The notes under the pieces: generated by a model
The model's input: only the letters and a program-made list of their open reading frames with translations
Databases searched by the model: none
What the model was told of the DNA's origin: nothing
Position numbers and translations under genes: made by a program
NCBI GenBank assembly: GCA_963575645.1
Contig: OY754464.1
Location: 45,374,192 to 45,438,191 of the forward strand
DNA from: Xanthostigma xanthostigma
Taxonomy: Eukaryota; Arthropoda; Insecta; Raphidioptera; Raphidiidae
Direction of reading: 5' to 3'
Length of the DNA: 64,000 nt
Part shown: positions 44,639 to 61,116 of the stretch, one piece after another
How the letters are laid out: each line of letters opens with the position of its first letter
Position numbering within the stretch: the first letter of the stretch is position 1

Positions 44639-44771
44639 GGTATTGAAACCTTTTTTTGTATTTTCTAAAATCATTTGAATGTAAAATGAGCATAAACCTA
44701 ATATTTTTTCGATGAAGGAAGGTTTTGGTGGAGGATCATAAATAAATAAGCTTTACCAATGTTTCGCTAGT

Positions 44772-44810
44772 GGCCAACGTTTCGAAAAATTTATTTTCAT
44801 CTTCAGGGCC
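44772..44810 (-). ncRNA. Hammerhead-like motif, foldback left arm
   Basis: Minus strand: GGCC-CTGAAGA-T-(GAAAA...TTTTC)-GAAACGTT-GGCC. Stem I GGCC/GGCC and a perfect 5-bp stem II; the core matches CUGANGA and GAAA, with one extra nucleotide before stem II. Confidence 0.4.
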
Positions 44811-44925
44811 TCAAGCTGGTTGAAAGGTGGTAAATTGTTAAAACAACATACATGATCATATTATTATATTATTATTATGATCATGTATGTTGTTTTAACA
44901 ATTTACCACCTTTCGACCAGCTTGA

Positions 44926-44964
44926 GGCCCTGAAGATGAAAATAAATTTTTCGAAACGTTGGCC
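44926..44964 (+). ncRNA. Hammerhead-like motif, foldback right arm
   Basis: Same motif as 44772-44810, on the plus strand. Confidence 0.4.
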
Positions 44965-45234
44965 ACTAGCGAAACATTGGTAAAGCTTATTTATTTATGA
45001 TCCTCAACCAAAACCTTCCTTCATCGTAACAGTCTATTGGATCAGGACTACTTTATGCTGAAGACATCTAATATTTTTTCCTATTTTCCATAAAAACTTG
45101 TCTATGGTCCCTGAAAAAGTGGTTTTTCCGAAAGAACTTCATCTGGAAAAGGTGCGTGTAAATTTTTTTCGGAAAATTTAAACATTTGTCGAAAATTACT
45201 TTGGTTTTTAACATTGCTCCGGTCTCTTTTATAG

Positions 45235-48009: not shown

Positions 48010-48785
48010 TTCTAACTCTAATATTATAAATGCGAACGTGAGTTTGTTTGTTTGTTTGTTACCCTTTCACGCGTAATCCGCTGAACAGATTTCGATAAAT
48101 TTAGAATCCTGAGGAAGGACATAGGCTACTGTTCGTAGCAAAAACAACCCTGAAATAAAATCAAAGTGTTTAAAAATTGTATTTTTAATTGGTACTACAA
48201 TAGTGCTTTTTGACAAAACATCCTCATAGTTCAGCCATATTTAATTTAAAATATTTACAAATTATACATACAAACCATCCCCGTTTAACGCTCTTTCTAT
48301 TAGTGGAAACCGTTTTAATATCCATTGCGTTGTTTATAAGAAGTACGCGGATACCATGGACAGAGGGAAACGGCAATTTGGTATTAAAAGTATGTAGTGA
48401 TGACAAAACACCGTCATAGTTCAGCCATATTTTGTACAAAATATTTACAAATTATATACACAATTCGTCCTCGTTTGTCGCTCTTTCTGTTAGTGAAAAT
48501 CGTTTCAAAATCCGTTGCGTGCTTTAGAAGAAGTAAGCGGAGAAACAGACAGCGACTTTTTTTCTATACTATGTAGTGATAATGCTTTTTGACAAAACAT
48601 TCTCATAGTTCAGCCATATTGTGTACAAAATATTTACAAATTATATGTACAAACCTTCCTGGTTTATCGCTCTTTTTATTAGTAAAAACCGTTTCAAAAT
48701 CCGTTGCGTGGTTTAGAAGAATAACGCGGATAAACAGACAGAGGGAATCGGCGACTTTCTTTTATACTATGTAATGATAATGATA
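48010..48785 (+). repeat. Dispersed repeat with a triplicated 190-bp 3' unit
   Basis: The start ATTATAAATGCGAACGTGAG, followed by GTTTGTTTGTTTGTTACCC, resembles a repeat common in Lepidoptera. From about 48203 a unit of roughly 190 bp (CATAGTTCAGCCATATT ... AAAATCCGTTGCGTG ... TACTATGTAGTGAT) is repeated three times in tandem. No coding content. Confidence 0.7.
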
Positions 48786-48940: not shown

Positions 48941-50120
48941 GATAGGCCAAGCTATAGAGATTTAAAAAAGCGTTCTCGTGACATAAGGACTAGTAGCAAA
49001 CCGATTGTGCGATGATATAAAAGATAATAAGCAGATGAGTAGGTATGTGTTTTTCACTCGAGTTTCCGGTCCATTTGTTAGTTATCAACAGTTTATTGCA
49101 AAAAAAACACGATTTTTGTCTTTTTTGGCTTGTAACTTTGAAACTAATGGAGCAATCGGAATGCCCCAATGAAATGGTTTGTAGAGAATTGAAATATCTA
49201 CAGAATGAGAGGTCGAATGTCTTAATCGGATAATTAGGTCCTGAAAAATTTAGGAAAAACCAGATAATTAGGCGTTTTTTCGAAAATTTATAGCTCCGTC
49301 ATTTTTTGAGCTGGAGCGCTAAAAACACTCGTAAAATTCGTGAAAAACGGCCGAGCGCGCCCTCTCAGGCGAGTGGTGGGAGAATATAAATAACATGCGC
49401 GCCGTGCGCGCTATTACTATATATACGCTTCTCCGCCGCTGCTCGTTCCACCACCACTCGACTGCGAGCACGTGCTCGGCCGTTTTTCGCGAACTTTACG
49501 AGTGTTTTTAGCATGCTTCCAGGCATTTGATCGAAAAACTAAAATCTACGTTTTGTAGTGCACGATGTCAACTTTTCAAAACTTTTTTTGAAATTATTAT
49601 CGGACTTACGGTAACGCATACAGGCCTGCCGGAAAAAAGTGCACTGCAAACTTTCAATCAAGATTTCGCGAAAACTAATAATCTGACAGCACCCACCTTT
49701 GGCACATATAAAGAACATTATAATCCCTACTTTCTCTCAAAATTTTAGCGCTCCAGCTCAAGAAATGACGGAGCTATAGATTTTCGAAAAAACGCCTAAT
49801 TTTCTGGTTTTTCCTAAATTTTTCAGGACCTAATTATCCGATTAAGACATTCAACCTCTCATTCTGTAGATATTTCAATTCTCTACAAAGCATTTCATTG
49901 GGGCATTCCGATTGCTCCATTAGTTTCAAAGCTACAAGCAAAAAAAGACAAAACTCGCGTTTTTTTGCAATCAACTGTTGATAACTAACTAATGGACCGG
50001 AAACTCGAGTGAAAAACATATACCTATTCATCTGCTTATTATCTTTTATATCATCGCACAATCGCTTTGCTACTAGTCTTTATGTCATGCAAAAATGCTA
50101 TACAGCTTGACCTATTTGGG
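48941..50120. mobile_element. 1.2-kb foldback with a nested inner foldback
   Basis: The outer inverted arms (about 48941-49330 and 49745-50120) share CTCGAGTTTCCGGTCCATT and AGAGAATTGAAATATCTACA. Inside, 49327-49516 is a second inverted pair (CTAAAAACACTCGTAAA and the complement, with CGGCCGAGC) enclosing a GC-rich core. A 73-codon frame at 49527 has no recognisable domain. Confidence 0.75.
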
Positions 50121-50640: not shown

Positions 50641-51743
50641 TTTTACTCATTATTAACTTTTAACTTGACAATAATTTGACAACTCAATATGTGAATATAA
50701 CTGCAGGTACATAATTATTTATATCTGTTGAAAGTGTTCGCATAATCTCCGACATACATAATATATATTTACACTTCTCTCACTCATGTGTCGTGAACGT
50801 CGTTTATCTTTATCTTTACAAATCAGTATCTCTCATTATTATAAAGTTTATAAAAATTTAGTAGTTTAGTACCGAATGTACTTTGATAGGTAACTGCCAT
50901 GTGCATGCTTACCCTTTTTGTTACTTGTACGTAGACTGGAGACAAGTGAAGTGAAGCCTTGTTAGGTGGTCAATTTTTAATTAAAGATCACTTCTTATTT
51001 TTTGACATTAAAAAAATACGGAAAAACTATTTTTTCTCCTTTAATCTGTTTCAATAATCAGTGAAAAGTGGGATGAAGTCTCGGATTAGAACTGAAGTCA
51101 TATATTAAAGAAGTCACGGAAACCCTCTCAAACCCTACATTTACGTTAAAAGTCGTGTCAGAAACCGAGCATTAATGTTTTACTGTCGCCCAATATGCTC
51201 ATTTTTCCAAGGCAATGTTCTGTAGGTAGATGGAAAAAAATCTTATTTCACGCTATGGAAATGTCACATTTGCACAAATTAGTTAATGAATTATTCCAGT
51301 AAATTTAATAATAAAAGATAAGATTTAATCTATTATTATTATTATACGTACTGTTTTCAACACAATACAGGACTGTTTAAACTACGACACTTATTGTTTA
51401 AATTGGCAAAACCAAAATTTCCCGCAAATTTTCCACTGTATAATGAAAATTGAAAAAAAATTGATTAAAAAAATAAAATAAAAATTTTAAAAAAATATGA
51501 AATATGTATATAGAATATATAAATATCAAGTGGACTAAAATGGAACAAGAAAAAAAAAAAAACAAAAATTCAATGATGTCAGTAGGGATCCACTGCGCCA
51601 TGGCACACTTGGCCTAGTGCCGCTGTTGTGATATAGAAGTATGGGTTATGTGCAAGGAGGCGGAGTTACAAATTTTTCGATGCGAGCGTTTGTGGTGAGA
51701 CTAGGCGAAACTTCAACCTCTAATTTTCCGTATGTCAGTGAGC
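50641..51743. other. Intergenic sequence left of the intact gypsy
   Basis: No gene recognised. Ends at the GAGC target duplication (51740-51743). Confidence 0.4.
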
Positions 51744-52625
51744 TGTTACCCGCACGCCGTAGTCGACCAATCAAATCAGAAAAGTCATACCACGTGCGTA
51801 CGGTATTTAAAAAAAGGACGGGTTCTGTCCCTAGCGGATCTTTATCGTTGTTCAGTATTGGTAGCGTATTAAAAGTAAAGCTTCATCACACGAGATCAGA
51901 TATGTACAATGGTTTATTTACAAAAATGAAATTTACATTAACTACGAGTATACAAAATATATAATAACTACTTCTAACAAATTCTTAATTCCCTATAATA
52001 TACTATTATGCAGTGGTAGACATTGCTGCAAGCAATGTCTAGCCTACCGAACTACGAAACCCAAAATGTACTTACATGATAATCTTCGACAACCAACTTC
52101 AACGACCGATGAGCAAAGACTGAATGATCAGTAAATGAATGATGAATAGTGAATGAGTGAATAATGAATGAACAAATGATTAAAGAATGAATGAATAATG
52201 AATGAATTTTCACCGCGTTCTGCCCTTTTCTCAAAATTACCCCACTCTTAACTTGTCTGCGAGCGCATGCCTTCAACCAATCGCAAACGGGCATGTAATC
52301 GCGTTGCGCCTGCGTAGTTAGTTATACTGATTTTAAGGGGTTGAGATAGGGGGGTTCTACGAATTCTGTTGGTTTTTATGACCTGACCTTCGAAATAGAT
52401 ACCATGTATGTTTCTATTGTTTTCCGTATCAACTAAAGTAAATATTTACGTCTTGGGTTCATTTGGATTTCGCATTCTACTCTTATCTCTAATTTTCTCT
52501 ATATTCTTTGAAAAAAAACCCTTAATGTATTTTTAGTCCAGTGGCGTACCAGAGATTTTTATTCTTCCACTGTATAATAATATTAAAAATATGTTTTGGC
52601 GTCGCCTGGTTTGGCGCCGTTAACA
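51744..52625 (-). repeat. 3' LTR (882 bp)
   Basis: Minus-strand LTR, TGTTAACGGCGCC...GGGTAACA. Contains a perfect inverted repeat AGACATTGC/GCAATGTCT (52017-52040) and a GAATGAAT-type degenerate microsatellite (52120-52205). No difference from the other LTR seen on reading. Confidence 0.93.
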
Positions 52626-52640
52626 CCACTCCCCCCTTAA
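52626..52640 (-). promoter_or_regulatory. Polypurine tract
   Basis: The minus strand reads AAGGGGGGAGTGG immediately before the 3' LTR: the primer for plus-strand DNA synthesis. Confidence 0.8.
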
Positions 52641-52899
52641 AAAAAAATTTTAGTCTCAACAGGGACTAAGATTCTTTTAGTAACAAAAAAAACGAATTTT
52701 ACGGAGTATTGACTCCCCCCCTTCTGGTACGACACCGGGCTCATACTTATGTCTATGAATCAACTTATTGGTAACCATTGTTGAACTACAAAAAAAAACT
52801 TATAACTCTTAACACTTTTCTATGACCAACCAATTACGTTTTTAACCTCACAGTTAGTTAAAAAAAAGGAAATTATTCTTCTCCACTCCCTGGTTTAGT

Positions 52900-53322
52900 T
52901 TAACTATTTCGGGTTATGTCGTGATGTGCCGGCGTCTCTTGCAGCTGGATTATTACACCCTTGTACGGTGTCACGGCTGGTTCCGGTCGGTTGCTGCTGG
53001 CTCTGGTAGATTTGAAAACTCGGGCGATCGCTCGGTGGGTGAATTTTGCTGTCGTTGCATCGCCTCGGGTGTAGCTAGTGATCAGCTTGGTCGTTGCTTC
53101 TTTGCTGATCGCGTTGCTGAGGTTTATAACTTGTAGGTTTGTCGGAGTACGCGACAAGCTTCTTGTCAGCGTGTTTACTATGGCTTGGCGCTCGACGTCG
53201 AACTCTCCTCTCACTTGGGATGCGTGAGAGTACCTCCCGCAGTGTGTGACTTGTCGTTGGACCTCCACCTTTGGACGATCCGTGTAGTCGGCGTCTTGCA
53301 GTAGCTGTATGCATGCTTCAGC
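52900..53322 (-). CDS. Unrecognised frame 3' of pol, about 140 codons
   Basis: Open on the minus strand from a TAG at 53323-53325 to the stop at 52900-52902. It has no early ATG; the first likely alternative start is GTG at 53268, so expression would need splicing or a non-AUG start. About 50 percent GC, unlike the AT-rich DNA on both sides, which suggests it was coding. Residues include QRQVTHCGRYSHASQVRGEF and SNAISKEATTKLITSYTRGD. No signal peptide, transmembrane segment or known domain seen. It sits where an envelope or accessory gene would be. It could be a remnant or simply GC-rich non-coding sequence. Confidence 0.3.
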   Translation of the reverse strand, partial: AEACIQLLQDADYTDRPKVEVQRQVTHCGRYSHASQVRGEFDVERQAIVNTLTRSLSRTPTNLQVINLSNAISKEATTKLITSYTRGDATTAKFTHRAIARVFKSTRASSNRPEPAVTPYKGVIIQLQETPAHHDITRNS

Positions 53323-54108
53323 CTACTAGATATTCTTCACCTGGTATTGACAGTCTTTTATCTCCAGTAGTGATATCGTCGTAATGTTTGGCCACGACCC
53401 CGCACAACACCGTTAATATTAAATTCTCGTACATCATAACTTCGCGCTTTCGAACGTCTTGTTAACTAGTATATATTATAAAAAAAAGGTCTCTGCCTTA
53501 CACACTTTTACACAGTTTACTATGTCTTAGCCACTCTTTCACTTCTGATTAATGTATCTCGCGGCACTCATTTAAGTTTATTAGCTCACATACAGTTTTG
53601 TCTCTTTTTGGGTCATAGAAAATTGGTCTCTAACAACATAATATAACATAAAAAAAATATTGGTTACACTCTTCAAACAAGGAGAATTTCACCATTATTA
53701 ACGTCATTGCTACATATGTATTCTTTCAATTATCTTTAGGTTTCCTCTATTGAAATGGTGTAATTCCCCTTCATATTACAATAAAGGCGTACTATTACTG
53801 ACTCCCCTCTTCACATTATTAAACTTATCCGTAAAAGTATACTCTAACTGTCCCAACAAGAACCAAGATCTTCACAATAACTATATCACCCGAAAGGAAT
53901 AATTTTTCTAGATTAAATATGAAGAAAATCTACCTATTATGGAATTTAATACTACCGCTATCCCTTTTTATTTTCGACATCTTGGTTATTGCTGTCCGTT
54001 ATGACTTATAGTATGGTAACGCTCATATTTACAAAATACCACACAGACAGATAAAAAAAAAAGAAAAACAACAAAAGAATCGGCTCTGAAACAAAAGAAA
54101 GATTATTA

Positions 54109-57100
54109 TTAGATTCTTCTTCTGAGCACCCATGGTGCGTCAGGTGCTGGCCCTTGACTGCGTGTATGATACCCCTCGGTTCCGCTTCGGCTTGGTGTCC
54201 GATGGCTCGGTGGTGCCTCGGCAATCGGCGTGTCGTCTTCGGCGTCGTCACTGCTGCTATCGGACCCTGCGGCGCTAGGCGAAGGCCTCCAGGTGCTCCA
54301 CTGAGGTCCCGTTTGCGGGGTGGACGGAGGGTCGGTTTGGTTGTTACCTTCGCTAGGATGTGGTCCTTCTCCGTTGTCAGCAGGCGCTATCAAAATTTCA
54401 AATTGCGCTGGCAACTCCTCCTGCTTTGCTAATCTGTAAATCCGAATAATTATTTTTGTCCCTTGGAATACTTCCTGAATCATCTCTTTAACTCTTTCCC
54501 AACTCAGCCCGTCTAGACCAGTGCCTATTCGTGGCATAGCCAGTTTAGTCGCGTGCACCCTTCTCATATGGTCCCTCATTGCAATTAGCGAATTGCGTAG
54601 ATTCGCTAAGGTGGGTTTATGGTAGTACCCTTGTTTGGTCACTAGATAATATACATACCGGTCGCGATCCTTCAGCCACACTACATTACCAGGTTGTGGT
54701 GTCTGTTTCTTCAGTTCGTCTGTCTGACCGAACTTTCGGCGGAAGCACGCGGCGATACCCTGCCCCATCTTCAAGTCTGCTGACACGCAATGTGCCAACG
54801 AATAGTCCCCCGGCGCTGTAAAAAGGTCCCCGACAACCTCGGTAATGTCGGGCGGGCCTGTCTCTTGAGCGCTTCGCGGCTCGCGGGCTGTTGAAACTTC
54901 TCCCGGGCCTTCTTCGGTTGCGGCGTCTACTGCGCTCGCACTGCACTTCTTCAGTCGGTTTGCGTGTACCACTTGCGTCGCACCTCCCTTGACGTTTTTT
55001 ATTTTGAAGGTCACCGGTCCCTTCTGCTCGGTGATCACATATGGACCTACCCATGGTCGCGTTAATTTCTTCGACCGGTGCAGCTTATTGCTCGGGTCGT
55101 GTAAATACACCCGGTCGCCTACCTCGAGGGTAACCTCCTTAGTGCGCTTGTCGTACTGGCGTTTGGCTTTCCCCGCCGCGTCATGTAGCTGTTGCGCGGC
55201 CCTTGTGAACGCCTGTTGCAATCGTTGCGTCATCTCAGCCGCATAATTTTCAGCGCAGTCATATGTCACTCTTCGGGATTTTATGATTTCGTCGAACGGA
55301 AGCTCCATGTGTCGGCCATGCACCAGATAGAATGGCGTCTCCCCTGTGGCTGAATGTATTTGGGATCTGTAAGCCATTAGGGCGTACGGTATCCACTCGT
55401 CCCAATCTCGCTGGTCTGGTTGTATGTAGTGGGACAGCATGTCTTTAATGACGCGGTGCATGCGTTCTATCATGCCGTTACTCTGCGGGTGGTAAGGTGT
55501 GGTCTGGATTTTATTAATATGTAAGATTTTGCATACCTCTTTCATAAGCGTAGACAAAAAGTTAGTCCCCTGATCTGTCAGTAGGGTCCGCGGCGCTCCG
55601 TGGCGGGCCACAATTTGGGTAACGAAAGCTCTGGCCACAGTTTCAGCCTTCTGGTCTGGTATTGGTATAGCCTCCACGTATCTGCTGAAGTAGTCCTGAA
55701 ACGTGAGCAAGTATTTGTTACCGTGAAGTGTTGTCACCAGTGGTCCCACAATATCCATCGATACGCGCTCGAATGGTTTTGAAACGTTCGGCATTTCCTG
55801 TAGTGGGGCTGGCGCGTTCTTATGCGCCTTCCGTTTTGCGCATGTTACGCACTGTTGGCAATATCTCTTCACGTCCCTCGCCATATTTTTCCACGTAAAT
55901 CTTTGCTTGATAAAAGATAGCGTCCTGTCGTATCCCTGGTGACCTGCAAATGGTAAATTGTGATAATCGTAGAGTACCCTATTTATAAGTGACCGTGGGA
56001 CCATTAACTGGTCTTCCTCCTTGGCGTTCGTTCTCGTTTTGTATAGTATCCCATCGTCGTCTAGGTAATGCGCATTCTGTTCTGGTTCGGTCTCTACCTC
56101 TCGAATGATGTCGCGGATCTCCGGATCTCCTCGCTGCTGTTCGTAAATGTGTTCCCGATCCCACACCGGCTCGAAGATCGTGTCTGTAGGATTCACGGTG
56201 CTAATTATGACGCGCGATAGTGCGTCGGCGTTACCGTGTAGTCGACCTGGCTTGTATGTCACCTCAAAATCGTACTCTGCTAGCGTTAGCGCCCATCTCG
56301 CGAGCCTTGAGCTCGGATCTCTTATTGCCAGCAACCATCGCAGTGGCCGATGATCGGTTATAATTACAAACCTCCTCCCATATAAATAACACCTATAGTG
56401 TTTAATGGCCCATATCACCGCTAAACATTCGCGCTCCGTTGTCGAGTAATTCTGTTCGGCCTTGTTGAGTTGCCGGCTAGCGTAAGCAATTGGTCTTTCC
56501 TTCCCCTCGTGTTCTTGGCTTAGAATGGCCCCCAGCGCAACTCCTGAGGCGTCCGTAGTTAACAGAAATGTCTTCGTAAAATCTGGATAGGCTAACACAC
56601 GTTCGCCACTCAACTCGTTTTTGAGTAGCTCGAATGCACCCTGCGCTTCACTATTCCAATCGAATGTTACGTTTTTCTTTGTCAATTGCGTTAGTGGCTT
56701 GGCTATTTGAGAAAAGTTTGGTATGAACCGCCTATAGTATCCCGTTAATCCAATGAATGCCCTAATATCTTTAACACTTTTAGGCTGCGGGTAGTTTCTG
56801 ACTGCCTGTATTTTCTCCGGGTCGGGCTTAACGCCTGTAGCCGATATTATATGCCCTAGATAATTCGTTTCTGATTTCAAGAACGAGCATTTAGCGGGTT
56901 TTAATTTGAGGTTGGACTTACGAAAACAGTCGAATACTCGTCGCAGTCGATCCAGATGTTCCTCGACGTCGTCTCCGCTGTAGACGATCACGTCGTCCAA
57001 GTAAATCAAACAGACGTCTCCTTTCAATTTTGATAATACGGAGTCAATCAGTCTCTGAAACGTGGAAGGGCTGTTCGCGAGTCCAAACGGCATACGGTTG

Positions 57101-58845
57101 AACTGGTAGTGTCCCGTGGGAGTACTGAATGCTGTCTTCTCGCGATCCTCTGGCGCCACTTCTACCTGATGGTATCCGCTAGCCAGATCTAAGGTGGTGA
57201 ATAATTTCGCCCCGTGCATTAAATCGAAAGTCTCCTGTATATTTGGCAGCGGATAGAAGTCCCGTTTAGTAATAGCGTTTAATTTACGATAGTCGATACA
57301 CACCCGTATTTTTTCTTCCCCATTTTCCGATTTCTTTGGCACTAGAACAACTGGAGCACTCCAGGGTGACCCTGATTCTGAAATAATGCCATCTCGCAGC
57401 ATTTTGTCTATCTCTTCCTGCAGCTTGGCCCTCTGTGCATGTGGAACTCTATAAGGGGCCTGTGCTATGGGCTGCACATCTCCCGTGATTATTCGATGCT
57501 GCACTTCCTTGGTGACGCCCAGCCTGTCACCGTCCATCACAAATATATCTCTATAACTATTAATAAATTGTTTAACTCTCTCTTGCTTGTTCTTACTCAG
57601 ATGACCCAGTTCGACCTTCAGCTTTTCACTGAGATTCGTGGTTCCACGTACTGGTGCATACGTTGCGCTCACGGGGGGTTTCTCGCGCATAATACTAGCT
57701 ACGCCTACTGCTGTTTTGGCGGGGACCGTCAAAGGCCGTTCGGTGACGTTGATCAAGCGTACCGTTACTTCGTTGTTATGTTGGACAGTCGTTAAAACTC
57801 TCGCTGCCAAAATTCCGTGCACTAGAATTTCGACCGGCTCGATGAGTAGGGACTCCTTGGGCTTTCCAATTTGTTGTCTCGCTTGGCACACACACTCGGT
57901 TCGGGCGGGAATTTCGAGGGCCTCTTTCAGCTCTACAAAAGGTCTGCCAACCTTCTGCTCGCTGTCGTTCGGACACCATGGCAGTGGCGCCGACGACGAG
58001 TCTTCTAGATCCCCTCCGCATTTGAGTGTTGTGGCTGCTCGACTTCCAGTGTCTAGCCCATTTCGCGCTCCTACGGTAGTACATCTAATATTTTCACGTA
58101 CCTGTTTAAAACTTCTGAAAATTTTTGATTTTGCGGCCCCGTCATTACTTGCTCGTTTGTTGTTCCGCGACCCCTTTTCGTCACGTATGTTCTGACTGTG
58201 CTGCGAACCCCCATTATAGCGTTTATTCTTCTTTACTCTTCCCCCGGCATTACATATGGCGTAAATTTTGTCAAGTTCACCTTCTGCATACAGTCTTTCT
58301 GGCACCCCGTTTAAATAGATCGTGCCGTTTCCCATATCTATCATACCCTGGTGTTCCTGTAAAAAGTCACGGCCCAAAAGTCCGTCTACGTCTATCGGTA
58401 ACTTGTCGCACACTACGAATAGTGACTGCAGCGTCCTGTCGCCGATAATTAAATTGACCTCCACGGTTCCTCTGCTTTCCAACTCGTGCCCCGTAATGCT
58501 TGTTAGTTTAATGTTATTATTGTACTCACCTGTACACCCTGGTATTACTACTGGCTTGATGATAGACACTGCCGAGCCTGTGTCCACCATCAAACGTATG
58601 GTTTGTGATCCCACCTCCGCGAACAGAATATGTGGAACACCCCTGCGATATTGTGCATTGATATGTATCACCGTCTCGCGTTTGTCCGCGCCTCGGGTTG
58701 GGGTAGTCTGTCCGAAGTGCGACTCGCGTTTAAAGACCTCTCCTGCTGAGTTTGTGCTGTAGCTTCGTGCTCTAAATGTCGCGACCTTTCTTCTGGTGGC
58801 GGCGCTTGTGGACGTCGCGCCCGCAGCTGAGGCGGCTGGCTCCAC
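54109..58845 (-). CDS. pol: Pol polyprotein with C-terminal TARG1-type macrodomain
   Basis: 1578 codons without a stop, numbered from the GTG at 58845; that frame opens after a TAG and is entered by -1 frameshifting from gag at 58728-58734. Domains: protease (VDTGSA, Asp88); reverse transcriptase (RVCIDYRKLN, YLDD at 615-618); RNase H (Asp765, DHRPL near 831); integrase with HHCC zinc region, catalytic Asp1031, Asp1091, Glu1127 (D,D-35-E) and a GPY/F module (GPY 1267-1269); a linker rich in Glu, Ala and Pro; a macrodomain (about 1334-1472); and a 106-residue acidic, Ser/Pro-rich tail ending in basic residues. The first part converts element RNA to integrated DNA in the usual way. The macrodomain is predicted to bind ADP-ribose and remove it from protein or nucleic acid. 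Length exceeds a usual gypsy pol by about 250 residues, all C-terminal. No frameshift or missing catalytic residue seen. Confidence 0.95.
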   Translation of the reverse strand: MEPAASAAGATSTSAATRRKVATFRARSYSTNSAGEVFKRESHFGQTTPTRGADKRETVIHINAQYRRGVPHILFAEVGSQTIRLMVDTGSAVSIIKPVVIPGCTGEYNNNIKLTSITGHELESRGTVEVNLIIGDRTLQSLFVVCDKLPIDVDGLLGRDFLQEHQGMIDMGNGTIYLNGVPERLYAEGELDKIYAICNAGGRVKKNKRYNGGSQHSQNIRDEKGSRNNKRASNDGAAKSKIFRSFKQVRENIRCTTVGARNGLDTGSRAATTLKCGGDLEDSSSAPLPWCPNDSEQKVGRPFVELKEALEIPARTECVCQARQQIGKPKESLLIEPVEILVHGILAARVLTTVQHNNEVTVRLINVTERPLTVPAKTAVGVASIMREKPPVSATYAPVRGTTNLSEKLKVELGHLSKNKQERVKQFINSYRDIFVMDGDRLGVTKEVQHRIITGDVQPIAQAPYRVPHAQRAKLQEEIDKMLRDGIISESGSPWSAPVVLVPKKSENGEEKIRVCIDYRKLNAITKRDFYPLPNIQETFDLMHGAKLFTTLDLASGYHQVEVAPEDREKTAFSTPTGHYQFNRMPFGLANSPSTFQRLIDSVLSKLKGDVCLIYLDDVIVYSGDDVEEHLDRLRRVFDCFRKSNLKLKPAKCSFLKSETNYLGHIISATGVKPDPEKIQAVRNYPQPKSVKDIRAFIGLTGYYRRFIPNFSQIAKPLTQLTKKNVTFDWNSEAQGAFELLKNELSGERVLAYPDFTKTFLLTTDASGVALGAILSQEHEGKERPIAYASRQLNKAEQNYSTTERECLAVIWAIKHYRCYLYGRRFVIITDHRPLRWLLAIRDPSSRLARWALTLAEYDFEVTYKPGRLHGNADALSRVIISTVNPTDTIFEPVWDREHIYEQQRGDPEIRDIIREVETEPEQNAHYLDDDGILYKTRTNAKEEDQLMVPRSLINRVLYDYHNLPFAGHQGYDRTLSFIKQRFTWKNMARDVKRYCQQCVTCAKRKAHKNAPAPLQEMPNVSKPFERVSMDIVGPLVTTLHGNKYLLTFQDYFSRYVEAIPIPDQKAETVARAFVTQIVARHGAPRTLLTDQGTNFLSTLMKEVCKILHINKIQTTPYHPQSNGMIERMHRVIKDMLSHYIQPDQRDWDEWIPYALMAYRSQIHSATGETPFYLVHGRHMELPFDEIIKSRRVTYDCAENYAAEMTQRLQQAFTRAAQQLHDAAGKAKRQYDKRTKEVTLEVGDRVYLHDPSNKLHRSKKLTRPWVGPYVITEQKGPVTFKIKNVKGGATQVVHANRLKKCSASAVDAATEEGPGEVSTAREPRSAQETGPPDITEVVGDLFTAPGDYSLAHCVSADLKMGQGIAACFRRKFGQTDELKKQTPQPGNVVWLKDRDRYVYYLVTKQGYYHKPTLANLRNSLIAMRDHMRRVHATKLAMPRIGTGLDGLSWERVKEMIQEVFQGTKIIIRIYRLAKQEELPAQFEILIAPADNGEGPHPSEGNNQTDPPSTPQTGPQWSTWRPSPSAAGSDSSSDDAEDDTPIAEAPPSHRTPSRSGTEGYHTRSQGPAPDAPWVLRRRI
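54430..54849 (-). other. Macrodomain (TARG1/OARD1, ALC1-like class) within Pol
   Basis: Pol residues about 1334-1472, 139 aa, close to the whole length of a TARG1 fold. Key stretches: GDLFTAPGDYSLAHCVSADL (strand, ADP-ribose-binding Asp in GDLF), KMGQGIAACFRRKFG (Gly-rich loop), YYLVTKQGYYHKPT and MPRIGTGLDGLSWERV. In human TARG1 the catalytic residues are Lys84 (in ITKK) and Asp125 (in GCGLD); here they align with Lys1404 and Asp1445. The spacing is 41 residues in both. TARG1 releases ADP-ribose from glutamate and O-acetyl-ADP-ribose, and its relative DarG removes it from DNA bases. The same fold is seen in viral macrodomains, but this one is of the TARG1 class. Activity is inferred from residues, not shown. 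Confidence 0.93.
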
Positions 58846-59738
58846 CTATTTGGGCCTCGTTGCGTGACGCCATTGCCTTGGGCACGTTTTTTTGAGTAGC
58901 ACTCTCTCTCCTGGTGCCCCGATTTTTTGCAATAGCGACACACTACTGCTGCTTTACAATCGCGTCTCATGTGTCCCATCCTAAAACAATTAAAACATTC
59001 CATATTTGTCCCGCTACTTACCTGCCTGTCCATGGTGTGCGCTCGTTGTTTTGGTGCTGCCGGCTGCCAGTCTGTGTCCGGTAATACGGCCTGGACTGTG
59101 CCCCGCGTCGTGTCCAATAATGCTCGATGTAGTTCAGCCTGTTCCGCTATAGCCGCCGCGGTGTCGATCGTAAGACCATCTTGTAGCGTGAGAGTGATGC
59201 CGATTGTCTGTTGCATTTCTCGCTTCAACCCGACCTTGAACTGTGTTAGTATGTCGCGCGCATTCATACGCTCTATCCCTGGTTTTTCAGCTTCAGTGGC
59301 TGTCTTCAGTTCTTCGTCTAGCCGATCTTGTCCCGCTAATTTCACTCTTGTCGTGAATTGGCGAACTGTTTCCGTGGCCTTTTGGTAAACCTGAGAAAGC
59401 TTAAACCGCGCCACCCCGGGTATTGTCGGTGGTTTAAAATGGTTGATCAAAGAAGTCTTTACCTGCTCGTAAGTGGCGGATGCCAATTTTGTATCGCTGC
59501 GATAGTATTGGTATGCACTTTCGCTCAGTTTGCACCTCAATACTTTCACCAGTTGTTCGTTCGTGATCCCGTCCAATTCTGCTCTTTGTTCCAATCGCTC
59601 AAAATATTCCGCTACTCTTTCTTTACCTGTGAGAGGTTCTATCGTATTCGCGAAACTGCCTAGCATGACACGCGGCATTTGCACCGTAACTACTTGTGGG
59701 CTAGTGCTATCACTCGACTCTCTAGATGGCGTGGCCAT
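58668..59738 (-). CDS. gag: Gag protein with two CCHC zinc knuckles
   Basis: 356 codons from ATG at 59738. Forms the intracellular particle and packages the RNA. Residues about 55-190 are capsid-like (YFERLEQRAELDGI, SAYQYYRSD, RFKLSQVYQKATETVRQFTT), as in Ty3/gypsy Gag. Two perfect CX2CX4HX4C knuckles follow at 248-261 and 267-280, then a Gln/Arg/Pro-rich basic tail. The last 59 codons overlap pol in the -1 relation. A second run A AAA AAA near 58885 would shift into a frame that meets TAG at 58846-58848, so it is unlikely to be the productive site. Intact. Confidence 0.93.
   Translation of the reverse strand: MATPSRESSDSTSPQVVTVQMPRVMLGSFANTIEPLTGKERVAEYFERLEQRAELDGITNEQLVKVLRCKLSESAYQYYRSDTKLASATYEQVKTSLINHFKPPTIPGVARFKLSQVYQKATETVRQFTTRVKLAGQDRLDEELKTATEAEKPGIERMNARDILTQFKVGLKREMQQTIGITLTLQDGLTIDTAAAIAEQAELHRALLDTTRGTVQAVLPDTDWQPAAPKQRAHTMDRQVSSGTNMECFNCFRMGHMRRDCKAAVVCRYCKKSGHQERECYSKKRAQGNGVTQRGPNRWSQPPQLRARRPQAPPPEERSRHLEHEATAQTQQERSLNASRTSDRLPQPEARTNARR
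58684..58734 (-). promoter_or_regulatory. -1 ribosomal frameshift signal (T TTA AAC plus stem-loop)
   Basis: In the gag frame the codons read TCT TTA AAC, giving the canonical heptamer T TTA AAC (58734-58728). After a 4-nt spacer, GTCGCACTTCGG (58723-58712) can pair with CCGAGGCGCGGAC (58696-58684) through a 15-nt loop, with one bulge and one mismatch. Slippage by -1 enters exactly the pol frame. The spacer is slightly short compared with the usual 5-9 nt. Confidence 0.8.
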
Positions 59739-60155
59739 TTTGACTGAATGTTAATTTCTAACCGGGTATTTGAATAGGCAAAACAAAACTTTTCTACAAA
59801 TTAAAGCTAAATTTTTGAAGCACTCATATACGCGCGACTCGCAAAACCCCTTTTTTTTTGACAAAGTATGAACACAATAAAAATCGATAAAACCGAACTT
59901 CTGCTACTTGACACTCTATTAACTGTTTATTATTGTTAATAACTCACTCAAACTCACTTAACATGCCCTTGATTGTCCCCGTGGTTATTTATAACCCGTT
60001 TGGCAATACTCGCCCTTCAATATCCCGTTTACTCGTTTAGTGTGCCAAAATGCACGTGTTTTTATATCAGCAAATCAACTTATACATCATACACTGCATC
60101 TCGCACGACGTTGCTTACTTGTTTTTTTTTTTCTGAACTACTTAAAGATCCCAAA
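59739..60155 (-). other. 5' leader of the intact gypsy
   Basis: About 420 bp between the primer site and the gag ATG, more AT-rich than the genes. Presumably holds the packaging signal. No frame of note. Confidence 0.6.
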
Positions 60156-60167
60156 CCGCTGCCACCA
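60156..60167 (-). promoter_or_regulatory. Primer binding site, tRNA-Leu type
   Basis: The minus strand reads TGGTGGCAGCGG, one base inside the LTR end. It is complementary to tRNA-Leu 3' ends finishing CCGCTGCCACCA. Confidence 0.75.
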
Positions 60168-60168
60168 T

Positions 60169-61050
60169 TGTTACCCGCACGCCGTAGTCGACCAATCAAA
60201 TCAGAAAAGTCATACCACGTGCGTACGGTATTTAAAAAAAGGACGGGTTCTGTCCCTAGCGGATCTTTATCGTTGTTCAGTATTGGTAGCGTATTAAAAG
60301 TAAAGCTTCATCACACGAGATCAGATATGTACAATGGTTTATTTACAAAAATGAAATTTACATTAACTACGAGTATACAAAATATATAATAACTACTTCT
60401 AACAAATTCTTAATTCCCTATAATATACTATTATGCAGTGGTAGACATTGCTGCAAGCAATGTCTAGCCTACCGAACTACGAAACCCAAAATGTACTTAC
60501 ATGATAATCTTCGACAACCAACTTCAACGACCGATGAGCAAAGACTGAATGATCAGTAAATGAATGATGAATAGTGAATGAGTGAATAATGAATGAACAA
60601 ATGATTAAAGAATGAATGAATAATGAATGAATTTTCACCGCGTTCTGCCCTTTTCTCAAAATTACCCCACTCTTAACTTGTCTGCGAGCGCATGCCTTCA
60701 ACCAATCGCAAACGGGCATGTAATCGCGTTGCGCCTGCGTAGTTAGTTATACTGATTTTAAGGGGTTGAGATAGGGGGGTTCTACGAATTCTGTTGGTTT
60801 TTATGACCTGACCTTCGAAATAGATACCATGTATGTTTCTATTGTTTTCCGTATCAACTAAAGTAAATATTTACGTCTTGGGTTCATTTGGATTTCGCAT
60901 TCTACTCTTATCTCTAATTTTCTCTATATTCTTTGAAAAAAAACCCTTAATGTATTTTTAGTCCAGTGGCGTACCAGAGATTTTTATTCTTCCACTGTAT
61001 AATAATATTAAAAATATGTTTTGGCGTCGCCTGGTTTGGCGCCGTTAACA
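60169..61050 (-). repeat. 5' LTR (882 bp)
   Basis: Same length and, by eye, the same sequence as 51744-52625. TG...CA ends and GAGC beyond. Confidence 0.93.
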
Positions 61051-61116
61051 GAGCCATGTTTATTAAAAGTGAAAATAGTTATAAGTTATAAGTTTTTTAA
61101 TTAGGTACAAAGAAAA

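Follow-up and report, generated by a model that had tools for sequence, protein, structure and literature searches.

What does a macrodomain of the TARG1 (OARD1) type do inside the Pol polyprotein of an insect retrotransposon, and how often has such a domain been taken up? The question is raised by a 64,000-nucleotide stretch of the Xanthostigma xanthostigma genome (the window; part of contig C1), in which a young Ty3/gypsy element occupies positions 51744-61050 on the minus strand. The first-pass annotation, made from the letters alone, had proposed that an uninterrupted Pol frame runs from protease to integrase and on into a complete macrodomain. Pfam matches bore this out: an open reading frame (ORF) of 1578 open codons encodes, in a single frame, the protease (PR), reverse transcriptase (RT), RNase H, the zinc finger, core and C-terminal domain of the integrase (IN), and Macro, in that order. 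This domain order also agrees with the proposed Ty3/gypsy nature of the element, as do its long terminal repeats (LTRs), target-site duplication and Gag zinc knuckle. The Ty3/gypsy placement is a structural one; the RT trees described below were built from elements of this genome and database proteins.

The identity of the domain was equally clear. Among solved structures its best relative was human OARD1/TARG1, aligned without gaps over 139 residues (E-value about 1e-40; 52-53% identity), as expected for the complete TARG1-class domain that had been claimed. The Pfam family Macro (PF01661) matched the window Pol at 27.6 bits, above its cut-off of 22. Lys1404 and Asp1445 of Pol, spaced by 41 residues as predicted, match the catalytic pair of TARG1, Lys84 and the acidic residue 125. 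In the portion available to us, a macrodomain review (one of PMC7050489 and PMC8053099) prints the latter as Glu125, but the human OARD1 sequence in the PDB has Asp at this position. An AlphaFold2 model of the macrodomain, based on 24 sequences, reached a predicted local distance difference test score (pLDDT) of 94.0 and a predicted template-modelling score (pTM) of 0.89. The Lys/Asp pair was kept in all 22 element domains extracted from the genome, two of them from broken copies with stops, while the domains of the element families are mostly 25-61% identical to each other. Even the most divergent type, that of locus L022, had OARD1 as its best solved match (E-value 3e-20).

Other affiliations were considered. 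OARD1 headed the PDB matches (E-value up to 1e-3), followed by bacterial macrodomain proteins (seven distinct sequences with the window query, ten in a second search), and a MacroD-type macrodomain was rejected on this ranking rather than on a direct MacroD alignment. The first-pass annotation had placed the domain in the TARG1 clade and drawn a parallel with DarG; the TARG1 part held, and the DarG part fared worse. According to the accessible text of the review (PMC7050489 or PMC8053099), DarG retains only the lysine of the pair, whereas the window domain keeps both residues, so membership of the DarG group was rejected. A Pfam scan of five ORF pieces of the window showed no ADP-ribosyltransferase toxin of the kind that partners DarG (DarT). 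The domain is not a misread host gene either: locus L034, the host OARD1 gene, stands separately, with two exons, a GT..AG intron and an intact catalytic pair. It shares 45-58% identity with the element domains compared (31% with L022), and its similarity to the window domain (47%) does not exceed that of human OARD1 (52%).

A six-frame search of the genome (623 Mb, 28 contigs) with the window domain gave 93 matches at E-values up to 0.001, all 102 candidates having been scored; human OARD1 as query gave 91, mostly at the same places. The window family comprises 21 complete macrodomains with 97-100% identity and not one stop, on several contigs, embedded in ORFs of 1578 (nine copies), 703 (eight), 701 (one), 542 (two) and 534 (one) codons. 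The other matches range from 61% down to about 30% identity, some being short or broken. Nine copies with the 1578-codon Pol, 21 complete domains on several contigs and the further families described below refute an assembly or annotation chimera, including the single-copy assembly error that had been named as an alternative; nothing was found in favor of such an artefact, and its probability is next to nil.

When 35 loci (L011-L045) were retrieved and the window domains mapped on each by tblastn, those with a readable Pol fell, by our own grouping, into eleven families. In eight of them the macrodomain follows the integrase (PR-RT-RNase H-IN-Macro): window family A, L011/L024/L041, L012/L042, L014/L032, L016/L033, L017, L018/L021 and L019/L020/L023. 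Two families have the order PR-Macro-RT-RNase H-IN, namely L013 with L028 (L045 being degraded) and L015 with L029 and L030, and one, L022 (L037 being broken), has RT-RNase H-Macro-IN. Reading of the junctions separated the two N-terminal arrangements, as the L015 macrodomain lies close behind the protease and ahead of a conserved pre-RT module, and that of L013 lies behind this module and directly ahead of RT. The macrodomain thus occupies four sites in Pol: after the integrase (eight families), right after the protease (one), just before RT (one) and in the gap between RNase H and integrase (one). Among the remaining loci, a macrodomain lies behind the IN C-terminus in L025, L026, L027, L035 and L040, all of them broken or partial; L031, L036, L043 and L044 carry a whole or partial macrodomain and no Pol in the tblastn mapping; L038 gave no tblastn match, and L039 a weak Gag match only. 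LTR pairs were not found in the eight other fetched loci tested, whose stretches were too short to hold them, and for this reason a position of the macrodomain inside LTRs is stated for the window element alone.

A window-like C-terminal tail closes the Pols of L028, L029 and L030, with no macrodomain ahead of it. Since, in addition, the site differs among families, the sequences tell us that the macrodomain has moved within Pol or was acquired more than once. Of the 42 extracted RTs, all but two that overlapping loci cover went into an RT tree of 40 rows, on which the carriers fell apart into three groups: a main group of 14 rows, in which the domain is C-sited in some and N-sited in others (support 94/93); a second group of L018, L019, L020, L021 and L023 (100/99); and L022, nested among macrodomain-less rows (96/92). 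Long branches were flagged by the program, including the one joining the L018-L023 group with L065, and the 20 macrodomain-less rows were chosen by eye as having no macrodomain match within 50 kb, a choice that rests on match coordinates. Among RT matches of the genome (146 of 1841 candidates scored), all 33 full-length ones with at least 65% identity had a macrodomain in the same element, and below this value there was a gap down to the next match at 52%. As for RT fragments with 62-79% identity, those at C10:13089156 and C10:13851386 had no nearby macrodomain match, and for C10:19849571 and C10:9782047 the closest one was 9-13 kb off. In trees of the macrodomain itself, a single clade of all 22 element domains had an approximately unbiased test p-value (p-AU) of 0.105 with 47 rows, and a single element clade one of 0.035 with 30 selected rows (the 47 minus 19, namely long branches, near copies and the L022/L037 type, plus two); the nine main-group domains alone as one clade gave 0.133, and these trees are too poorly resolved for counting captures. 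Our reading of the sequences is that gypsy elements may have captured the macrodomain twice or more; a single capture, followed by moves and losses, is possible.

Is the domain maintained? Over the 151-codon stretch that comprises the macrodomain and a few flanking codons, the 21 window-family copies show 12 nonsynonymous variants (350 sites) and 10 synonymous ones (103 sites), with a ratio of 0.35 (Fisher p 0.016, variants being counted as independent), and the 12 copies without a full Pol ORF show 11 and 9 (ratio 0.36; p 0.025). Between families H (L018/L021) and I (L019/L020), nonsynonymous divergence (dN) in the macrodomain was about 0.15 with synonymous divergence (dS) saturated, versus a dN of 0.05 and a dS of 1.2-1.3 in RT. 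The macrodomain is under purifying selection and is constrained less than RT.

Shortened copies are informative in this respect. ORFs of 701-703 codons occur in nine of the 21 window-family copies, and the four examined (L004, L006, L007 and L008) lack RT, RNase H and the zinc finger and core of the integrase and keep the protease, the IN C-terminal domain and the macrodomain; in L004, L006 and L008 the missing segment corresponds to window 55154-57773. Likewise, L002 and L003 lack RT, RNase H and IN core, retain the macrodomain, and miss part of the protease too. Such RT-less derivatives would spread only with enzymes supplied by other copies. That they keep the macrodomain suggests that it is useful apart from integrase catalysis.

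Related arrangements exist among public proteins. Used alone, the macrodomain retrieved 24 database proteins, three fly and mosquito OARD1-like proteins among them, and the integrase region retrieved 542 Pol-like proteins. None of the best 120 of these 542 carried a Macro family annotation, and a 950-codon C-terminal piece of Pol had no match over the macrodomain region in the protein database. With our own macrodomain profile, however, ten of the best 120 were positive (independent E-value below 0.01), four strongly: P0034 from Leptinotarsa and P0027, both with the domain between RNase H and IN and the former with both catalytic residues; P0033, with the order PR-Macro-RT and the acidic catalytic residue lost; and P0076, with the domain behind IN. 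In the other six, all weak or degenerate, it lies between RNase H and IN. An RT tree of 121 rows, which included 95 of 120 database rows that were long enough (P0034 left out) and from which 16 of 42 own-genome rows were dropped as near copies or overlaps, showed carriers and non-carriers interleaved. P0034, named tropomodulin isoform X2, fuses a tropomodulin domain to the macrodomain-bearing gypsy Pol and is probably a gene-model chimera. A comparable RNase H-integrase gap in P0142 and P0129 gave no profile match.

The TARG1-type fusion is real, repeated and constrained. As to its function, which we infer, we hold with moderate confidence that it is a captured mono-ADP-ribosyl-hydrolase, packaged with Pol, that would remove host ADP-ribosylation from element proteins or nucleic-acid ends. 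Host PARP-family enzymes would modify acidic residues of Gag and Pol, or terminal phosphates of cDNA or RNA; the macrodomain, entering the virus-like particle as part of Pol, would strip the ADP-ribose after the particle has assembled and before the element integrates. It would act as an independent enzyme, either within Pol or released by the element protease, and not as a built-in part of the integrase. Such a counter-defence enzyme may be portable within Pol much like the retroviral dUTPase. According to the accessible parts of PMC7050489 and PMC8053099, TARG1 cleaves ADP-ribose esters, both those on acidic residues and those at the ends of nucleic acids, and interacts with PARP1. The reversal of ADP-ribosylation on Gag, integrase, cDNA or DNA ends that the first-pass annotation had proposed is plausible on this biochemistry. 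In Drosophila parp-1 mutants, as far as the available text of PMC7712786 goes, five of the eight mobile elements that were significantly misregulated were up, and nine of the ten elements in a weaker panel belonged to gypsy-superfamily LTR elements. Because of this biochemistry and these results, we favor a counter-defence hydrolase delivered with Pol. The four Pol sites across families suggest that ADP-ribose tagging may be a host defence worth escaping. This led us to a broader proposal, more tentative and with the odds somewhat against it: that arthropod Ty3/gypsy elements took up TARG1-type macrodomains several times, at no fewer than four sites in Pol, since insects use ADP-ribosylation against retrotransposons, and that the domain is a portable, packaged counter-defence enzyme kept even by RT-less derivatives.

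Several observations speak against the counter-defence interpretation. Of the loci scanned, the window, L011, L017 and L024 alone reached the Pfam Macro cut-off, the calls in the remaining loci resting on tblastn, alignment and OARD1 matches. The selection signal was modest in the nine full-length window-family copies alone (ratio 0.39; p 0.098), and the close pair L016/L033 had a ratio of 0.80 on four changes. Retention of the macrodomain by RT-less derivatives may be a by-product of where the deletions fell. P0043, P0062, P0028, P0143, P0139 and P0138 have weak or degenerate macrodomain-like inserts in the RNase H-integrase gap and, because several public inserts are degenerate, hydrolysis cannot be required in every lineage. 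Finally, three of the eight elements in the parp-1 mutants were down, and the authors of that study, in its accessible part, allow an indirect cause (PMC7712786).

Alternatively, the domain could be a reader that binds ADP-ribose or poly(ADP-ribose) (PAR) and steers integration to PARP-active chromatin or DNA breaks, in the way that chromodomains may guide the integrases of chromoviruses. Its position behind the IN C-terminal domain in eight of the eleven families would suit such a tether, as would the fact that the ALC1-like class includes both readers and erasers, as noted in the available part of the review (PMC7050489 or PMC8053099). Nonetheless, a tether is less natural for domains near the protease, before RT or before the integrase, a reader could do without the catalytic pair, kept in 22 of 22 domains, and derivatives without the integrase core keep the macrodomain; we regard this explanation as unlikely. 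It is because the site in Pol varies that an independent enzyme is favored over an integrase tether. LTR elements capture host sequence by chance, and a functionless passenger would account for the degenerate versions among public Pol proteins and for a macrodomain evolving faster than RT (dN 0.15 against 0.05 in families H and I); it is hard to square with an open frame, an invariant catalytic pair, purifying selection and recurrence at four sites, and is improbable. A metabolic role, with no defence target, in which the domain would rid the particle or cell of O-acetyl-ADP-ribose or free ADP-ribose conjugates, finds some ground in the hydrolysis of O-acyl-ADP-ribose esters by TARG1 (the same review, PMC7050489 or PMC8053099, in the part at hand), but the host already has a TARG1 gene with an intact pair (L034) and there is no clear reason for packaging in Pol, which makes this role very improbable.

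How does the counter-defence enzyme proposed here compare with known systems? It shares with cellular TARG1/OARD1/C6orf130 the domain length, predicted fold, Lys/acid pair and 52-53% identity; the cellular protein is small and free-standing, whereas the window version is a domain within a retrotransposon Pol. Viral macrodomains, such as coronavirus Mac1, which has ADP-ribosylhydrolase activity, are of the MacroD type and belong to RNA viruses. They too are borne by replicating elements, but the window domain is of the TARG1 type and sits in a retroelement. Fish epsilon-like retroviruses occasionally carry CNPase or macro domain ORFs (Basta et al. 2009, as cited in the consulted portion of PMC4977317). 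The likeness lies in the presence of a macrodomain in a retroelement, and those domains are extra ORFs, unlike the insect ones, which are fused in frame inside Pol at several sites. The nearest analogy is the dUTPase of betaretroviruses and non-primate lentiviruses, a polyprotein enzyme whose place varies (ahead of the protease, or in the RNase H-integrase interval) and which one virus needs although its copy is degenerate (PMC4261571, in the text available); it differs as an enzyme, in its pathway and in belonging to vertebrate retroviruses. Chromoviruses, Gypsy elements whose Pol ends in a chromodomain (PMC12440569, accessible part), share an extra post-integrase domain with most families here; the insect elements have a macrodomain instead, and it is not confined to the C-terminus. 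Pfam matched no chromodomain in the window Pol pieces. An in-Pol macrodomain fusion in Ty3/gypsy elements was not found in the literature searched, which comprised titles and the beginnings of abstracts, with most subscription papers, bioRxiv and Repbase outside its scope. The one relevant precedent that turned up there was the fish retroviral ORFs. In the available text of a survey of viral NAD and ADP-ribose functions (PMC9503650), the strings 'TARG1', 'gypsy' and 'transpos' are absent, and 'retro' words occur only in a passage on 2H domains.

Table 1. Features of the window element (window positions) and glycoprotein sequences at related loci (locus positions)
Feature	Positions	Strand	Evidence or remark
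3' LTR, 882 bp	51744..52625	-	identical to 5' LTR over 882 bp; ends TGTTA..TAACA
5' LTR, 882 bp	60169..61050	-	identical to 3' LTR over 882 bp
Target-site duplication GAGC	51740..51743 and 61051..61054	.	flanks both LTRs
Putative primer-binding site TGGTGGCAGCGGT	60155..60167	-	adjoins 5' LTR
Putative polypurine tract AAGGGGGGAGTGG	52626..52638	-	adjoins 3' LTR
Gag, 356 aa, with CCHC zinc knuckle	58668..59738	-	ORF and Pfam
Pol ORF, 1578 open codons	54109..58845	-	overlaps Gag in a different frame
Protease (Pol 76-169)	58339..58620	-	PF00077
Reverse transcriptase (Pol 502-667)	56845..57342	-	PF00078
RNase H (Pol 755-858)	56272..56583	-	PF17917
Integrase H2C2 zinc-binding domain (Pol 949-999)	55849..56001	-	PF17921
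Integrase core (Pol 1022-1120)	55486..55782	-	PF00665
Integrase C-terminal domain (Pol 1267-1300)	54946..55047	-	PF22938
TARG1/OARD1-type macrodomain (Pol 1334-1472; Lys1404, Asp1445)	54430..54846	-	Pfam, OARD1 match, alignment, predicted model
Linker and conserved Pol tail TRSQGPAPDAPWVL	54112..54429	-	tail counterparts in other families, macrodomain present or not
Chuvirus-type (Monjiviricetes) envelope gene remnant, broken	53065..53406	-	tblastn with envelope ORFs of two related families
Chuvirus-type glycoprotein	L012 597-1514; L017 1-837; L032 2620-3414; L041 1208-2092, 2357-3157	-	
Chuvirus-type glycoprotein	L028 3331-4095, 4363-5121	+	

The remaining features of the element are in keeping with this structure (Table 1). 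Because its two LTRs are identical, the element appears to have inserted recently. Its putative primer-binding site, TGGTGGCAGCGGT, we take to be of the tRNA-Leu type. The G+C content is 0.47-0.51 across 54001-60000, against 0.26-0.39 in the remaining 2-kb steps of the window. Rfam and tRNA scans of the window gave no matches. The mitochondrial COX1 of the genome is insect-like and is read with the invertebrate code. Elsewhere in the window, 48211-48741, 49101-49966 and 44707-45029 hold a three-copy direct repeat (period about 190 bp) and two long inverted repeats (arms of 224 and 160 nt), which may belong to other mobile elements.

Several of the macrodomain-bearing families carry, behind Pol, sequence for a chuvirus-type (Monjiviricetes) fusion glycoprotein, and PF24664 matched the envelope remnant of the window (ORF 52900-53322) at 29.0 bits, with a cut-off of 27. 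A chuvirus-type envelope gene behind Pol recalls Anakin elements, which carry a chuvirus glycoprotein (PMC7642597, in the part available); Anakin is BEL/Pao, whereas the elements described here are Ty3/gypsy and have a macrodomain. The accessible text of PMC10084718 reports no clear evidence for capture of chuvirus glycoproteins by Gypsy elements. At L011 1450-2160 (minus strand; family B), a SINA/SIAH-like RING ORF occupies the position of the envelope gene in the 99% identical L041; it has relatives at 49-87% elsewhere in the genome, and one set of these adjoins a macrodomain fragment on C10. The Pols of L018, L019, L020, L021 and L023, from the more distant families H and I, have behind the macrodomain a C-terminal CCCH zinc finger that scores below most Pfam cut-offs.

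If active, the macrodomain would be an enzyme of a retrotransposon polyprotein that reverses ADP-ribosylation, of which we found no description in the literature searched, and it would provide a testable case for insect PARP-family enzymes acting against retrotransposons. The four sites that it occupies in Pol represent a natural experiment on how an accessory enzyme enters and moves within this polyprotein, in parallel to the retroviral dUTPase.
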